Source of the DNA: Bacteroidales bacterium
Lineage (GTDB): Bacteria; Bacteroidota; Bacteroidia; Bacteroidales; UBA932
Reading direction: 5' to 3'
DNA length: 64,000 nucleotides
NCBI GenBank assembly: GCA_017412645.1
Contig: JAFPWX010000003.1
Location: 98,641-162,640, forward strand
The position numbers and the translations under genes were made by a program. Positions 58,595 through 62,960 of the stretch are shown in pieces (the stretch's first letter is position 1; each line of letters starts with the position of its first letter). The notes beneath the pieces were generated by a model, which saw nothing but the letters and a program-made list of their open reading frames with translations, ran no database searches and was not told the origin of the DNA.

Positions 58595-58602
58595 TATATT
58601 TG
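58595..58602 (+). promoter_or_regulatory. -7 box for the HprK-like/S26/PqqD/ABC cassette
   Basis: TATATTTG, 7 bases before the ATG at 58610. It is divergent from the DUF4290 promoter box 23 bases away. Confidence 0.55.
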
Positions 58603-58609
58603 CATTGGT

Positions 58610-59485
58610 ATGACTAAAAGCTACAAGGTAGCCGGACATGTGTTCTCCTTCGTCTTTCCGGAGGAGCATCCGCTGTGGGGTCTGACTGGGCAGTACAAGC
58701 CTTTTGAGATTCCCACGGATCCCTCTCCTCTGTTCATTGTCGAACTTGTTGAAAGCCTTCCTGTGGAAACGCTGGAAAAGGTTTACGGGGGAGACGAAGA
58801 ACCCGGACAGCCCGTCATCCTGCTCTACCGGAGAAACGGCGGCTGGGCCTTCGAGATGGCCCCATGCCCGGGAAGGCCTGTGTGCGGCAGGGCTTATGTC
58901 GACGGCACCTTCAGTCACGTCCGTCTGCAGATACTCCGTCCGTCCGAAGGGCTCTTCGCCCTCAACAACGCAGCCATGCTGGTTTTCGCCTTCAGCACCG
59001 CATCCCTTGACACGCTGGAAATGCACGCCTCGGTGGTGGTGAACTCCGGAAAAGCCTTCCTTTGGCTCGCCAAAAGCGGTACCGGCAAGAGCACCCATTC
59101 GCAGCTCTGGCTGGACAACGTCCAGGGCAGCCATCTTCTCAACGACGACAACCCAGTGGTACGCGTCATGGAAGACGGCCATACTGAGGTGTTCGGAACC
59201 CCATGGAGCGGCAAAACGCCGTGCTACAGGAATGAGCATTATCCGGCAGGAGCTTTCACCGAAATAGTGCGCAGTCCCGAAAACCGCATCAGGCGCAAGA
59301 GTGTGCTGGAGGCCTACGCCCTCCTGTACTCCTCGAGCTCCGGCTTCAAAGCGGATCCTGCAATGTCCGACGGCCTTAACGCAACTTACGAAAAGATAAT
59401 AACGGCCACTCCCTGTTTCACCCTCGAATGCCGTCCCGACGCCGATGCTGCCCGGGTGTCTTCGGAAACTCTCCTGAAGCTATGA
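58610..59485 (+). CDS. HPr kinase/phosphorylase-like ATP-binding protein
   Basis: 291 residues. The C-terminal half shows the HprK catalytic pattern: a histidine in EMHASVV (H139), P-loop AKSGTGKS (154-161) and LLNDDNPVV with the D179/D180 acidic pair. The N-terminal part (about 1-120) is specific to this family. In lasso-type clusters HprK-like kinases phosphorylate a precursor peptide; such a role is possible here. It is the first gene of a four-gene, stop/start-overlapping cassette with S26 peptidase-like, PqqD-like and ABC genes. Confidence 0.72.
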   Translation: MTKSYKVAGHVFSFVFPEEHPLWGLTGQYKPFEIPTDPSPLFIVELVESLPVETLEKVYGGDEEPGQPVILLYRRNGGWAFEMAPCPGRPVCGRAYVDGTFSHVRLQILRPSEGLFALNNAAMLVFAFSTASLDTLEMHASVVVNSGKAFLWLAKSGTGKSTHSQLWLDNVQGSHLLNDDNPVVRVMEDGHTEVFGTPWSGKTPCYRNEHYPAGAFTEIVRSPENRIRRKSVLEAYALLYSSSSGFKADPAMSDGLNATYEKIITATPCFTLECRPDADAARVSSETLLKL

Positions 59486-59946
59486 AGCCCACCAGCATAA
59501 CCCTTCCCAACGACGTGATGCTGGGCGGCGTGAAGGAACTTCTCGCCGAAGGGCGCCAGGTGGTTATCATGACCAAGGGAGTGAGCATGCTGCCCTTCAT
59601 CGTGGGCAAGCGAGACAGTGTGGTGCTGGAAAAACGCCCCACGGTGGCTCCTGGAGACATCGCCCTTGCGGAAATCGCCCCCGGTCACTACGTGCTTCAC
59701 AGGGTGCGAAATGTAGAAGAGGAGCGCGTGACCCTTCAGGGAGACGGCAACTACCGCGGGCAGGAGCACTGCACGCTGGATAACATAGCGGGAACGGTAG
59801 TGGCGGTGCAGACTCCCGGCAAGCGCGACCGCGATCCCTTCGCCCCGGCGGAAATGCGTCGCTGGCGCCGCTGGGCGGCCCTTCCGGCCCTTGTCCGCCG
59901 CTATTATCTGGCTTTTTACAGAAGAATAAAACACATCACGATATGA
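59482..59946 (+). CDS. S24/S26-type peptidase-like protein with Ser-His dyad
   Basis: 154 residues from MKPTSITLPNDVM. Box B is GVSMLPFI with S35 as the likely nucleophile. The later VLHRVRNV gives H73 where bacterial signal peptidase I has lysine, and LQGDGN (D88) follows; this is the Ser-His layout of SipW/ER-type signal peptidases. No membrane helix is visible at the N-terminus, unusual for a signal peptidase, though the C-terminus is aromatic and basic (RRYYLAFYRRIK). It could trim a leader peptide in the cytosol or at the membrane surface. The ATGA overlaps on both sides indicate tight coupling. Confidence 0.72.
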   Translation: MKPTSITLPNDVMLGGVKELLAEGRQVVIMTKGVSMLPFIVGKRDSVVLEKRPTVAPGDIALAEIAPGHYVLHRVRNVEEERVTLQGDGNYRGQEHCTLDNIAGTVVAVQTPGKRDRDPFAPAEMRRWRRWAALPALVRRYYLAFYRRIKHITI

Positions 59947-60212
59947 AAATAAAGGAAGGATTCAAGCTCCGCACCATAGTCGGCGAGCATATAGTCACGG
60001 GAGAGGGTCTCGCACAGGTGAATTTCAACAAGATCATCTCCCTCAACGAAACTGCGGCCTATCTCTGGGAACACGTTACCGGCAAGGAGTTCAGCGTGGA
60101 AGATCTCACGAAACTTCTTCTTGACGAGTACGACGTGGACGAGGCCACGGCTTCCAAGGACGCGGCGGCCATTGCGGACAAGTGGATCGAAATAGGAATA
60201 GTGGAAAAGTGA
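59943..60212 (+). CDS. PqqD-like RiPP recognition element protein
   Basis: 89 residues. The winged-helix PqqD/RRE pattern is visible in NKIISLNETAAYLWEHVTGK followed by EFSVEDLTKLLLDEYDVDEA and DKWIEIGIVEK. RRE proteins bind leader peptides of ribosomally made, post-translationally modified peptides and present them to modifying enzymes. No PQQ genes accompany it. It overlaps the S26-like gene and the ABC gene by 4 bases each. Confidence 0.85.
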   Translation: MKIKEGFKLRTIVGEHIVTGEGLAQVNFNKIISLNETAAYLWEHVTGKEFSVEDLTKLLLDEYDVDEATASKDAAAIADKWIEIGIVEK

Positions 60213-61837
60213 GAACATTCAAAGACTGTTTCCGCGGACTGGCCGGGGTGCTGAAACCCCTCAGGTGGAGAGTGCTTGTGAGCGCCCTTCTGGGCTTGCT
60301 TCAGGTAGCCCTGTCCCTCGGCTTCGTGTGGTACAGCAAACGCGTGGTGGATCTTGCTACCGGCGAGGCTGATGGCTCCCTGGTGCAGGGCATAAGCATC
60401 TTTGCCGCCATCCTGCTATTGCAGATTGCCGCCCGCACAGCAGCCCGCTGGTGGGAAGGCTACATCGTGGTGGAGGCACAGAACGCAAACCGCGCCAGTG
60501 TCTTCTCCCGTGTGATGCACAGCATCTGGCAGGGACGCGACCGCTTTCACAGCGCCGATACGATTAACCGTCTGGAAGAAGACATCCGTGTGGTGGTAGA
60601 TTTCGTGTGCACTTCGCTGCCCGGAATCGTGGTCACCGCCTGTCAGTTCGTGGCAGCCTGCATCTTCCTGTTCTCCCTCTCGCCCCAGCTTGGCTGGATA
60701 CTGGTGTTCATTATGCCGGTGGCAGTGATCGGAAGCCGCCTGTTCTTCCGTAAGATGCGTTCGCTCACGAACGATATCCGCCGTGGCGACAGTCTGGTGC
60801 AGGCGCACATGCAGGAGAATATCCAGCATCGCATGGTAATCCGCACCATGGGCAGCACGGAAGACACTCTCGACGCCCTTGATGAGCTTCAGGACGACGT
60901 TCGCGCCAACACTCTCAGACGCCTCGGCTATTCAGCCTTCTCGCGTACCTTCATGCAGCTGGGCTTCATGCTCGGCTATGCCGCAGCCTTTATCTGGAGC
61001 GTCTACGGCCTCAGCAAAGGCACGGTCACATACGGTCTTATGACCGCCTTCCTGCAGCTTGTGGGTCAGGTTCAGCGCCCGGTTGCGGAACTGGCCAGCC
61101 AGGTGCCGGCATTTATCAAGGCTCTCGCGAGCGAAGACCGCCTGCTGGACCTTTCCGAGCAGATTCAGGAACCCGAGGGCCCGGAAATCCGGCTTGAAGG
61201 GGCGCCCGGCGTGCGTGTAGAGGACTTGAGTTTCAAGTATCCCGAGGCTGCCTCGCCCGTTTTCGAAGGTCTCTCCTTCGATTTCCGGCCCGGAACGATG
61301 ACTGCTATCCTCGGTCCCACCGGCAGCGGCAAGAGCACCTTGGTAAAGCTTATAATGAACCTGCTATCGCCATCTTCCGGAAGCGTTACGCTGTACAATC
61401 CGCCCACGCCTTCCGGAGCCGGAACGCTCTGCAACTTCATGTATGTGCCGCAGGGGAATTCCCTCATGAGCGGAAGCATACGTCAGAATCTCCGTCTCGC
61501 TGCACCCCAGGCTACGGACGACCAGCTCTGGGAAGCCCTCGAAACGGCATCCGCCGGGTTCGTACGCGATCTTCCGGAAGGACTGGACACCGTTTGTGCC
61601 GAGGTGGGACAGGGACTCAGCGAAGGTCAGGCGCAGAGGATTGCCATAGCCAGGGCCCTGCTTCGTCCTGGAGGCATACTGGTGCTGGACGAGGCCACGA
61701 GCGCCCTTGACGCAGAAACCGAACAGGCTCTGCTGGATAATATCGCCCGCCGCTACCGGGGAAGCAAGACCATACTCTGCATTACTCACCGGCCGGCGGC
61801 TACGGATTATGCCGACCAGACCCTCAAGTTGGCTTAG
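60209..61837 (+). CDS. ABC transporter, fused permease-ATPase (peptide exporter-like)
   Basis: 542 residues, start GTG placed at the GTGA overlap with the PqqD-like stop. The N-terminal membrane domain has about six helices (residues 20-310). The ATPase domain has Walker A GPTGSGKSTLVKL, a slightly variant signature LSEGQAQR, and Walker B VLDEATSAL. There is no N-terminal C39 peptidase domain, consistent with a separate peptidase-like protein in the cassette. It probably exports the product or precursor of the cassette. It is followed by a gap before the FISUMP gene. Confidence 0.88.
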   Translation: MRTFKDCFRGLAGVLKPLRWRVLVSALLGLLQVALSLGFVWYSKRVVDLATGEADGSLVQGISIFAAILLLQIAARTAARWWEGYIVVEAQNANRASVFSRVMHSIWQGRDRFHSADTINRLEEDIRVVVDFVCTSLPGIVVTACQFVAACIFLFSLSPQLGWILVFIMPVAVIGSRLFFRKMRSLTNDIRRGDSLVQAHMQENIQHRMVIRTMGSTEDTLDALDELQDDVRANTLRRLGYSAFSRTFMQLGFMLGYAAAFIWSVYGLSKGTVTYGLMTAFLQLVGQVQRPVAELASQVPAFIKALASEDRLLDLSEQIQEPEGPEIRLEGAPGVRVEDLSFKYPEAASPVFEGLSFDFRPGTMTAILGPTGSGKSTLVKLIMNLLSPSSGSVTLYNPPTPSGAGTLCNFMYVPQGNSLMSGSIRQNLRLAAPQATDDQLWEALETASAGFVRDLPEGLDTVCAEVGQGLSEGQAQRIAIARALLRPGGILVLDEATSALDAETEQALLDNIARRYRGSKTILCITHRPAATDYADQTLKLA

Positions 61838-61937: not shown

Positions 61938-62960
61938 ATGAAACTTAACAGATATATTTTCGCCCTGCTTGCCGCCGCAGCCCTGCTTGTCGGCTGCAAG
62001 AAAGATGACGAAGACACAAAGCCCTCCCTTTCCGGAAAGGTTACCATAGGGGTCACTATTCCGGCATATGTGCAAAAGGGAGAGTCTTTTCATATAGTCG
62101 CCAGTGGGGCCTATCGTAAGTCCAAGACCGACACCCTTGTCGGCTATTATATCTACGATCCTATCACACATCAATACGATACCATCCGCACGGAAGGCCA
62201 GACCGGTTCCGCGGAAGGGGATTTTGTGATCAGTGTAGACAGCCTGAGCACGTTCACCATGAATGTAACTGCCTTTGCCAAAGGATATTATGGCACTACG
62301 GGCTCGGCTTCGTTCACTGTGGTGAACCCTTCGCTTGACACCCTTCGCGGCTCGCTCAAGGGTCATCCCTACGGCTACGATGTCACCACTTCTTTCACTG
62401 ATGCCCGTGACGGCCTGGTATACTATGCCACGTCGCTTTCTTCGGGCGGATGGATGATTCAGAATCTTGCCTGGACTGGTGCTGGTGCTGGTGCTGGTTA
62501 CCCCTATGCAGATTCCGAGGCCATGAGCTATATAGCCGGCCGCTTTTACAATTGGGACGAGGCCACTACTGCGTGCCCGGCTGGTTGGAAGCTTCCTTCG
62601 GATGCGGATTTCGTTGCCCTCGCTGGCGCTGGTGCGACAGGGGAGACCATTCCCGATGCCGCCGGCGTGCTGAAGGGCGATGTGAGCTTCAATGGATCCG
62701 CACTCTGGCCCTACCAGAACGGCAAAATAACCATTACCAACGACACTTTCTTCACCGCCCTGCCATGGGGCTACCTCACTGTATCGGCCGGGACTCACAG
62801 TTACAAGTCCTTCCGTGAAACCGCGGTCTTCTGGACTGCTGATTCCGTGGACTCCGAAACCGCCCTGGCCCGATACCTCAAGGTGGATTCCAACGACATT
62901 CTGGTCCAGACCATGGACAAGAAATCGTTCTGCGCCTCGGTGCGCTGCATCAAGGAATAG
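61938..62960 (+). CDS. FISUMP-domain surface lipoprotein
   Basis: 340 residues from MKLNRYIFALLAAAALLVGC; the lipobox LVGC gives a lipid-anchored cysteine followed by KKDDEDTK, which fits export to the outer membrane or surface. The middle is Ig-like or carbohydrate-binding-like in composition. The C-terminal part carries FISUMP (Fibrobacter succinogenes major paralogous) features: DARDGLVYYATSL, GRFYNWDEATTACPAGWKLP and SVRCIKE. A Gly-Ala run (GAGAGAG) is encoded by four hexamer repeats at 62476-62498. Function unknown; likely a surface or binding protein. It overlaps the convergent comEC end by 11 bases. Confidence 0.8.
   Translation: MKLNRYIFALLAAAALLVGCKKDDEDTKPSLSGKVTIGVTIPAYVQKGESFHIVASGAYRKSKTDTLVGYYIYDPITHQYDTIRTEGQTGSAEGDFVISVDSLSTFTMNVTAFAKGYYGTTGSASFTVVNPSLDTLRGSLKGHPYGYDVTTSFTDARDGLVYYATSLSSGGWMIQNLAWTGAGAGAGYPYADSEAMSYIAGRFYNWDEATTACPAGWKLPSDADFVALAGAGATGETIPDAAGVLKGDVSFNGSALWPYQNGKITITNDTFFTALPWGYLTVSAGTHSYKSFRETAVFWTADSVDSETALARYLKVDSNDILVQTMDKKSFCASVRCIKE
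62476..62498 (+). repeat. (CTGGTG) hexamer tandem repeat in the FISUMP gene
   Basis: Almost four copies of CTGGTG, encoding alternating Gly and Ala. Changes in copy number would keep the frame and alter only loop length. Confidence 0.7.

Follow-up and report, generated by a model that had tools for sequence, protein, structure and literature searches.

A four-gene operon in a Bacteroidales genome is probably the maturation and export machine of an LPP-like peptide system with precursors encoded elsewhere

Introduction

What would an operon for a kinase, a peptidase, a peptide-binding protein and an exporter act on, when no substrate gene is seen beside it? The question is raised by positions 58610 to 61837 of a 64,000-nucleotide stretch of contig JAFPWX010000003.1 (assembly GCA_017412645.1) from a Bacteroidales bacterium. 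We refer to this whole stretch as the window, and to the 1.8 Mb, 96% complete genome in which it lies (on contig C17) as the window genome, or G000. The initial annotation had recognised in the operon the parts of a pathway for ribosomally synthesised and post-translationally modified peptides (RiPPs), namely a RiPP recognition element (RRE), a protease, a kinase and an exporter, and this recognition holds up; the set matches that of the linear polyphosphorylated peptides (LPPs). We consider it probable (at a rough probability of 0.73) that the operon, present in one copy, matures and exports the products of an LPP-like RiPP system, with the precursor genes lying in trans; a peptide system described from Bacillota seems to be present, rearranged, in Bacteroidota.

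LPPs were described from Bacillota by Popov et al. (Nat Commun, May 2026; PMC13381572), where they are called Bacillota-restricted. As reported there, the locus of Paenibacillus alginolyticus is ordered lppA-K-B-S-D-N, and the set comprises a SipW-like peptidase, an RRE, an HprK kinase, an NTP transferase and an MsbA-like exporter. LppB, the RRE, binds leaders with the motif YxxPxV; LppK, which is HprK-like, places several phosphates on Ser3 of a core starting AQS; the SipW-like LppS cuts off the leader and needs LppB to do so; LppD serves as the pump for export; and a deletion of LppN, the NTP transferase, had no visible effect. The LppA leader has the consensus YxxPxVLxHQxIxFETxxS and is cut after the T (PMC13381572). 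The string "Bacteroid" does not occur in the main text of that paper, and among the matches listed in searches of the open-licence literature there is no report of this gene set in Bacteroidota. The proposal that the operon belongs to an undescribed system therefore stands for the Bacteroidota version and falls for the kind of system, which has been described as LPP in Bacillota. The companion statement that no known RiPP enzyme is present has to be withdrawn, since HprK-like kinases and nucleotidyltransferases are known from phosphorylated lasso peptides and from LPPs (PMC13381572).

The operon and its four proteins

Four open reading frames (ORFs) make up the operon, abbreviated below as K (kinase), S (peptidase), Q (RRE) and ABC (exporter); NT denotes an NTP_transf_5 gene found in relatives.

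58610..59485, + strand: K, HprK-like kinase, 291 aa, named from invariant columns and a predicted PEPCK/HprK fold
59482..59946, + strand: S, Sec11/S26-type serine peptidase, 154 aa, named from a profile match and predicted fold; proposed leader peptidase
59943..60212, + strand: Q, PqqD-type RRE, 89 aa, Pfam PF05402
60209..61837, + strand: ABC, MsbA/CydCD-like exporter, 542 aa, GTG start, ABC_membrane and ABC_tran domains

Consecutive frames share the 4-base stop/start overlaps that had been pointed out before (ATGA at 59482-59485, ATGA at 59943-59946 and GTGA at 60209-60212).

Q matches PqqD (PF05402, 3.4e-15) above the Pfam cut-off and is the single PqqD match in the whole of G000. Set against solved structures, it finds TfuB1 best (7e-7), a lasso leader-binding protein, followed by TbiB1, PbaB1 and LppB (chain 9x8z, E 0.038). 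In LppB, N33 fixes a kink at the leader Pro and D70 bonds the leader Tyr (PMC13381572); a HMMER alignment pairs these residues with Q N35 and Q D73 respectively, both of which are invariant in 24 of 24 sequences. By its sequence, Q is a discrete RRE of the PqqD type, as found in LPP systems. As a PqqD of PQQ biosynthesis it was rejected, scoring 12.8 bits on that equivalog model against a cut-off of 101.

K and S fall under the curated Pfam and NCBIfam cut-offs in library scans, and were therefore identified by alignment or profile and by fold. In K, His139, the P-loop SGTGKST (156-162) and Asp179-Asp180 are conserved, and an alignment of 18 diverse sequences shows no change (18/18) in the His, in the P-loop pattern S-G-x-G-K-x-T or in N-D-D; the same residues are invariant in HPr kinases, where they have catalytic roles. 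Because a K profile set against solved structures gave ABC and PEP carboxykinase P-loop matches only, a fold search was used instead. With the predicted structure of K (mean pLDDT 95.9), PEP carboxykinases head the list of this search and HPr kinase/phosphatases appear at rank 36 and below, at TM-scores of 0.25-0.59. The modelled fold and the invariant residues point to an HprK-like kinase, the type that LPP systems carry, outside the family HprK_rel_A (TIGR04352), on which K scores weakly (19.6 bits vs a cut-off of 200).

The S profile finds SEC11C (1.1e-7) and SEC11A (2.8e-7), and its Ser35, His73 and Asp88 are invariant in 24/24 sequences and again in 34/34. The predicted structure (pLDDT 92.3) has LexA/UmuD as its fold matches, with type I signal peptidases lower down. 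S is the sole match of its profile in G000 at E ≤ 0.001, and is predicted to be a SipW/archaeal-type signal peptidase with a Ser-His-Asp triad. The exporter passes the Pfam cut-offs for ABC_membrane and ABC_tran; it reaches 1.1e-66 on the MsbA model, which is under that model's cut-off and slightly below its scores on the CydC and CydD models. No C39 peptidase domain is among the matches listed for it in the Pfam and NCBIfam scans, and the protein appears to be an MsbA-like exporter of the LPP kind.

A dispersed family of candidate precursor peptides

As the initial annotation had proposed, small ORFs were listed near the corresponding gene sets (modules) of relatives, and one peptide type recurs among them: directly before K (locus L059), after Q-K (L060), beside NT (L111) and elsewhere. 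An initial loose regular-expression scan gave mostly noise and was used just to spot candidates. Eight of these peptides, which have no match among Pfam and NCBIfam models, supplied the leaders for a profile, A2, which at E ≤ 0.01 has matches in 18 of the 32 genomes with K (seven of the 18 are seed genomes); at E ≤ 1 it matches in 29 of 32, a threshold at which chance matches are expected. A refined profile, A3, was built with 22 members from outside the modules, one of which has a module at 7 kb distance. In G000, A3 finds four peptides, two on contig C15, one on C18 and one on C24. The suspicion that the precursor might lie elsewhere is borne out to this extent, as is the statement that no precursor ORF is seen in or beside the operon: no peptide of this type lies in the window, where the best match reaches E 0.15 and 8 bits.

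The family consists of ORFs of 34-93 aa with the leader motif YxxPx[VI]E...E.G[IF][AC]xS. We analysed 85 distinct peptides with starts set by rule, one of 86 matches having been dropped for misfit of start or length; their median length is 47 aa. Y is present in 85/85 and P, which selection required, in 85/85; V, I or L stands at the third place of YxxPxV in ~65%, E at Y+13 in 84% and Ser at Y+19 in 70%, and 79/85 have an xxS element at the Ser site if small shifts are allowed. Behind this element sequence conservation ends. Counted from Y+20, the remainder is short (median 18 aa) and acidic (median charge -5); 84/85 peptides have no Cys in it, and in 62/85 an aromatic residue stands within its last three positions. 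Against solved structures the peptide profile gave chance-level matches only (E ≥ 0.8). As judged from the motif, these peptides would be precursors with the YxxPxV leader that LppB recognises.

Conservation of the module

Among 61 genomes searched, own genome included, 37 belong to the same genus. K is present in 31 of the 61 (29/37 of the genus and two others). At 18 of 32 loci, every one of which (the window's included) was picked by way of K, the order K-S-Q-ABC is kept on a single strand inside 6 kb, which is more than chance. The initial annotation would have been refuted by the four genes parting in relatives; this is so only partly, K standing apart from the others in a few of them. 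In three of the 18 ordered loci (L059, L048, L055), Q and ABC are separated by a fifth gene; in L059 it is NTP_transf_5 (PF14907, 4e-33), and the fifth genes of L048 and L055 are similar to it.

Beyond these, 392 genomes were drawn evenly from the order; 69 have K at E ≤ 1e-3, of which 31 reach E ≤ 1e-20 (strong K). The best 80 of at least 591 records supplied a further set of named loci, a few perhaps from genomes that carry G numbers here. Three or more of the five genes K, S, Q, NT and ABC are present at 29/32 order-draw loci and 76/80 named loci, recurring around K in shuffled order, with NT matches (tblastn) at 15/80 named loci. Records carrying the module include Alistipes, Phocaeicola sartorii, Bacteroides sp. 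51, Prevotella aff. ruminicola and Sphingobacterium. As every locus was found through K, these loci do not address S, Q and ABC where K is missing.

Several loci depart from this arrangement. At 20 of the 80 named loci, many titled Alistipes, there are K, S and ABC matches and no Q within reach; their Q may be elsewhere or too divergent. In G013, G034 and G003, K is found within or next to long frames that carry a TruB-type tRNA pseudouridine synthase (L056, L057, L058), and S-Q-NT-ABC sit at other genome sites (L229, L237, L234). G030 has a second, divergent Q-K pair (L060:8030-9515), immediately behind which come a 62-aa YxxP peptide and two large proteins of the secreted type; S, NT and ABC were not found at this second pair. 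Module genes also occur in records titled as Rickettsiales and Fibrobacter succinogenes metagenome-assembled genomes (L307, L317), which seem likely to be misbinned Bacteroidales contigs.

Co-occurrence of peptides and module

At E ≤ 0.01 the peptide is carried by 24 of the 392 order genomes, and 22 of these 24 have K, against 69/392 overall. The association persists when the ten seed genomes are removed, with K in 12/14 peptide carriers vs 59/382 genomes (Fisher 4.7e-9) or, counting strong K, in 10/14 vs 21/382 (Fisher 2.0e-11). It persists also when seed genera are removed and genera are counted instead, where a hand tally finds strong K in 6/10 peptide-positive vs 5/187 peptide-negative genera (1.2e-6). 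In the 80 named loci, newly fetched and 1.3 Mb in total, a profile of the 22 dispersed members gave 16 matches at E ≤ 0.01, one in each of 16 loci, and none when run on five Markov-shuffled copies. Thirteen of these matches have a module gene no more than 3.3 kb away, a bin chosen afterwards; as the zone makes up 55.5% of bases, proximity in these loci is only a mild trend.

A number of observations weigh against reading these peptides as substrates of an LPP-like machine. Relatedness among genomes inflates the Fisher values above and is only partly removed by these tests. At E ≤ 0.01 no peptide was found in 11/31 strong-K genomes, in 47/69 genomes with K or at 64/80 named loci, and G013 has the module and no peptide even at E ≤ 0.05. 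Within the genus, at the latter threshold, 26/29 genomes with K and 4/8 without it have peptides, a weak association (p 0.027). Genome G032 (91% complete) has 18 peptides at E ≤ 0.05 and two PqqD matches, one of them close to Q and standing alone (L220), with no K or S in profile searches; G018, G007, G014 and G186 have one to three peptides each, with PqqD, K and S not found; and in G290 and G051 a PqqD and a weak match to the peptide profile are present, with K and S not found. Some of these K- and S-negative genomes are incomplete, and one of the absence searches had no positive control, while that with the S profile had G000. Three further points concern the likeness to LPPs itself: Q scores 32 bits with TfuB1 and 17 with LppB, in a comparison among solved chains; the rest of the LPP leader consensus, LxHQxIxFETxxS, is unmatched, the sequence here being E..[ED][VI]..E.G[IF][AC].S; and a genome search of G000 found no NTP_transf_5. 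Finally, in the Bsf lasso system changes of the leader Y, P and L left phosphorylation intact (PMC10368454), which counsels caution about the weight given to the YxxP motif.

The operon might instead act on some other substrate, a host protein or an undetected class of peptide, with the YxxP ORFs co-occurring through shared lineages. The peptide-bearing genomes of the genus that lack K, G032 with its 18 peptides, and the strong-K genomes and named loci without a peptide would all suit this explanation. We nevertheless regard it as unlikely, because the peptide and its lipoprotein gene lie inside the module in two records, because the co-occurrence outlasts the removal of seed genomes and of seed genera, and because the leader shows the motif gripped in LppB by an Asn and an Asp whose counterparts in Q are invariant. 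The two records are L239 (Prevotellaceae), with the order Q-NT-ABC-peptide-lipoprotein-K-S, and L313 (Sphingobacterium corticibacterium), with Q-K-NT-peptide-lipoprotein-ORF-S-ABC.

Peptide genes precede lipoprotein genes

The same pairing recurs through most of the family. With five of the 85 dropped for having less than 900 bp of downstream sequence, 65 of 80 testable peptides are followed within 300 bp by a same-strand ORF of at least 150 aa; these partners are 287-1096 aa long and begin after a median gap of 16 bp. The remaining peptides have an opposite-strand ORF there (4) or neither (11). A lipobox is present in 53 of the 65 partners and another signal-like start in 9, and all four peptides of G000 are followed by a lipoprotein-like gene. 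A W..GD.I.V-type motif, chosen after viewing the partners, occurs in 33/65 of them vs 13/177 other lipobox ORFs. Pfam scans of ten partner lipoproteins found Mfa_like_1 in one, DUF4465 in one, GLUG in two and no domain in six.

So close a spacing, with some pairs overlapping, would also be expected if the small ORFs were leader peptides or upstream ORFs controlling translation of the lipoprotein gene behind them. We consider this improbable: what is conserved is amino acids (Y, P, E and Ser), the part behind them is variable and acidic, and regulation would not account for the association with the genes of an RRE, a peptidase and an exporter.

Surroundings of the operon

Two further features of the window adjoin the operon:

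58595..58602, + strand: TAnnTTTG-type box TATATTTG, just upstream of K; candidate promoter, read in the sequence
61938-62960: FISUMP-domain lipoprotein, 100 bp 3' of the operon

The box is putative, resting on TAnnTTTG, which we take to be the Bacteroidota promoter consensus. On one side the operon is flanked by a gene of FtsK type, so named from its sequence, and by a DUF4290 gene on the minus strand; on the other side are the FISUMP lipoprotein and a Competence (ComEC-type) gene. The FISUMP lipoprotein was considered as a part of the operon and not counted in; a relative of it lies somewhere in the fetched stretch at 8 of 32 loci, the window's own included. The neighbours that would have betrayed a PQQ or lasso pathway were not seen.

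Proposed mechanism and significance

The analysis shows the gene set and its conservation, the family of peptides with the motif they share with LPP leaders, their co-occurrence with K and the pairing with lipoprotein genes. We infer the following course of binding, phosphorylation, cleavage and export. Q would bind the YxxPx[VI] leader of several scattered peptides, each encoded just before a large lipoprotein gene. K would phosphorylate the precursor; the likeliest phosphosite is the conserved Ser in [AC]xS, with a cut before [AC], because [AC]xS recalls the AQS start of the LPP core. S, as a signal-peptidase-type enzyme with Ser-His-Asp, would be guided by Q and remove the leader near [AC]xS, the alternative site, by signal-peptidase rules, being after the Ser. 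The ABC protein would export the short acidic remainder. In many relatives, the window genome with its missing NT not among them, the phosphate may receive a further group from the NTP_transf_5 protein.

As to what such a system might be for, one possibility, at slightly less than even odds, is a hub-and-spoke arrangement, in which one kinase-peptidase-RRE-exporter machine would serve many scattered precursors, each with its own surface lipoprotein. The phosphorylated acidic peptides would be exported as partners of fimbrillin-like lipoproteins (as ligands, adducts or matrix), in a routine surface function and not as antibiotics.

If the biochemistry holds, the statement that LPPs are restricted to Bacillota (PMC13381572) needs revision, and because the module is found in records of Alistipes, Bacteroides, Phocaeicola, Prevotella and Sphingobacterium, this chemistry would reach into a dominant gut phylum. 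Dozens of uncharacterised small ORFs would then be named as precursors, the recurrent lipoprotein partner would point to a role, and the question of LPP function would become testable in cultured strains.

Comparison with known systems

Small precursor peptides of Bacteroidales also make up TIGR04149, which we take to be the family of GG-type natural product precursors of this order. The peptides described here resemble them in being small and from Bacteroidales, and differ in having no double-glycine in the leader consensus and, for the eight peptides scanned, no NCBIfam match.

A closer likeness is to phosphorylated lasso peptides (paeninodin, pseudomycoidin, Bsf), which share an RRE (B1), an HprK-type kinase, an ABC exporter and a YxxPxL leader with the system described here. 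Phospho-lasso pathways use HprK-like kinases and nucleotidyltransferases as RiPP enzymes (PMC8498205, PMC10368454), and the two are paired in pseudomycoidin (PMC8498205) and in Bsf (PMC10368454); a nucleotidyltransferase is present in some of these clusters, as it is in the Bacteroidota relatives that have NT. Such shared parts, and the same YxxPx[hydrophobic] motif, could mean that the operon belongs to a cryptic lasso pathway whose cyclase and B2 leader peptidase lie elsewhere in the genome. This we hold to be very improbable. An S26-type peptidase stands here in place of B2, and S would be a superfluous second peptidase in a lasso pathway. The B2 peptidase PF13471 is absent in 32 of 34 genomes searched, including G000, in line with the earlier statement that the operon has none; it is clear in G320 and weak in G372. 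No lasso cyclase was found among the scanned neighbour genes, a genome-wide cyclase search not having been made.

We return to the LPPs, which the proposed machine resembles most in its parts and from which it differs in host and layout. The host here belongs to Bacteroidota as opposed to Bacillota, and the window genome has no NT. Its machine lies beside ftsK and DUF4290 and not in a capsule locus, and precursors are scattered, with up to 18 matches per genome, mostly beside a lipoprotein gene. The remainder behind the leader is short and acidic (median 18 aa from Y+20) vs a 45-aa LppA core, and the spacing from E to Ser is 6 here vs 4, the rest of the leader consensus also differing. Because the leader is unmatched beyond YxxPxV and Q is no closer to LppB than to TfuB1, we describe the system, on sequence grounds, as LPP-like and do not file it as an LPP member. 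What the two have in common is an HprK-like kinase, a discrete RRE, a Ser-His-Asp signal peptidase of the archaeal/SipW type and an MsbA-like exporter, joined in many Bacteroidota relatives by an NTP transferase, together with a YxxPxV leader, an AxS-type element near its end and the leader-gripping residues of the RRE.

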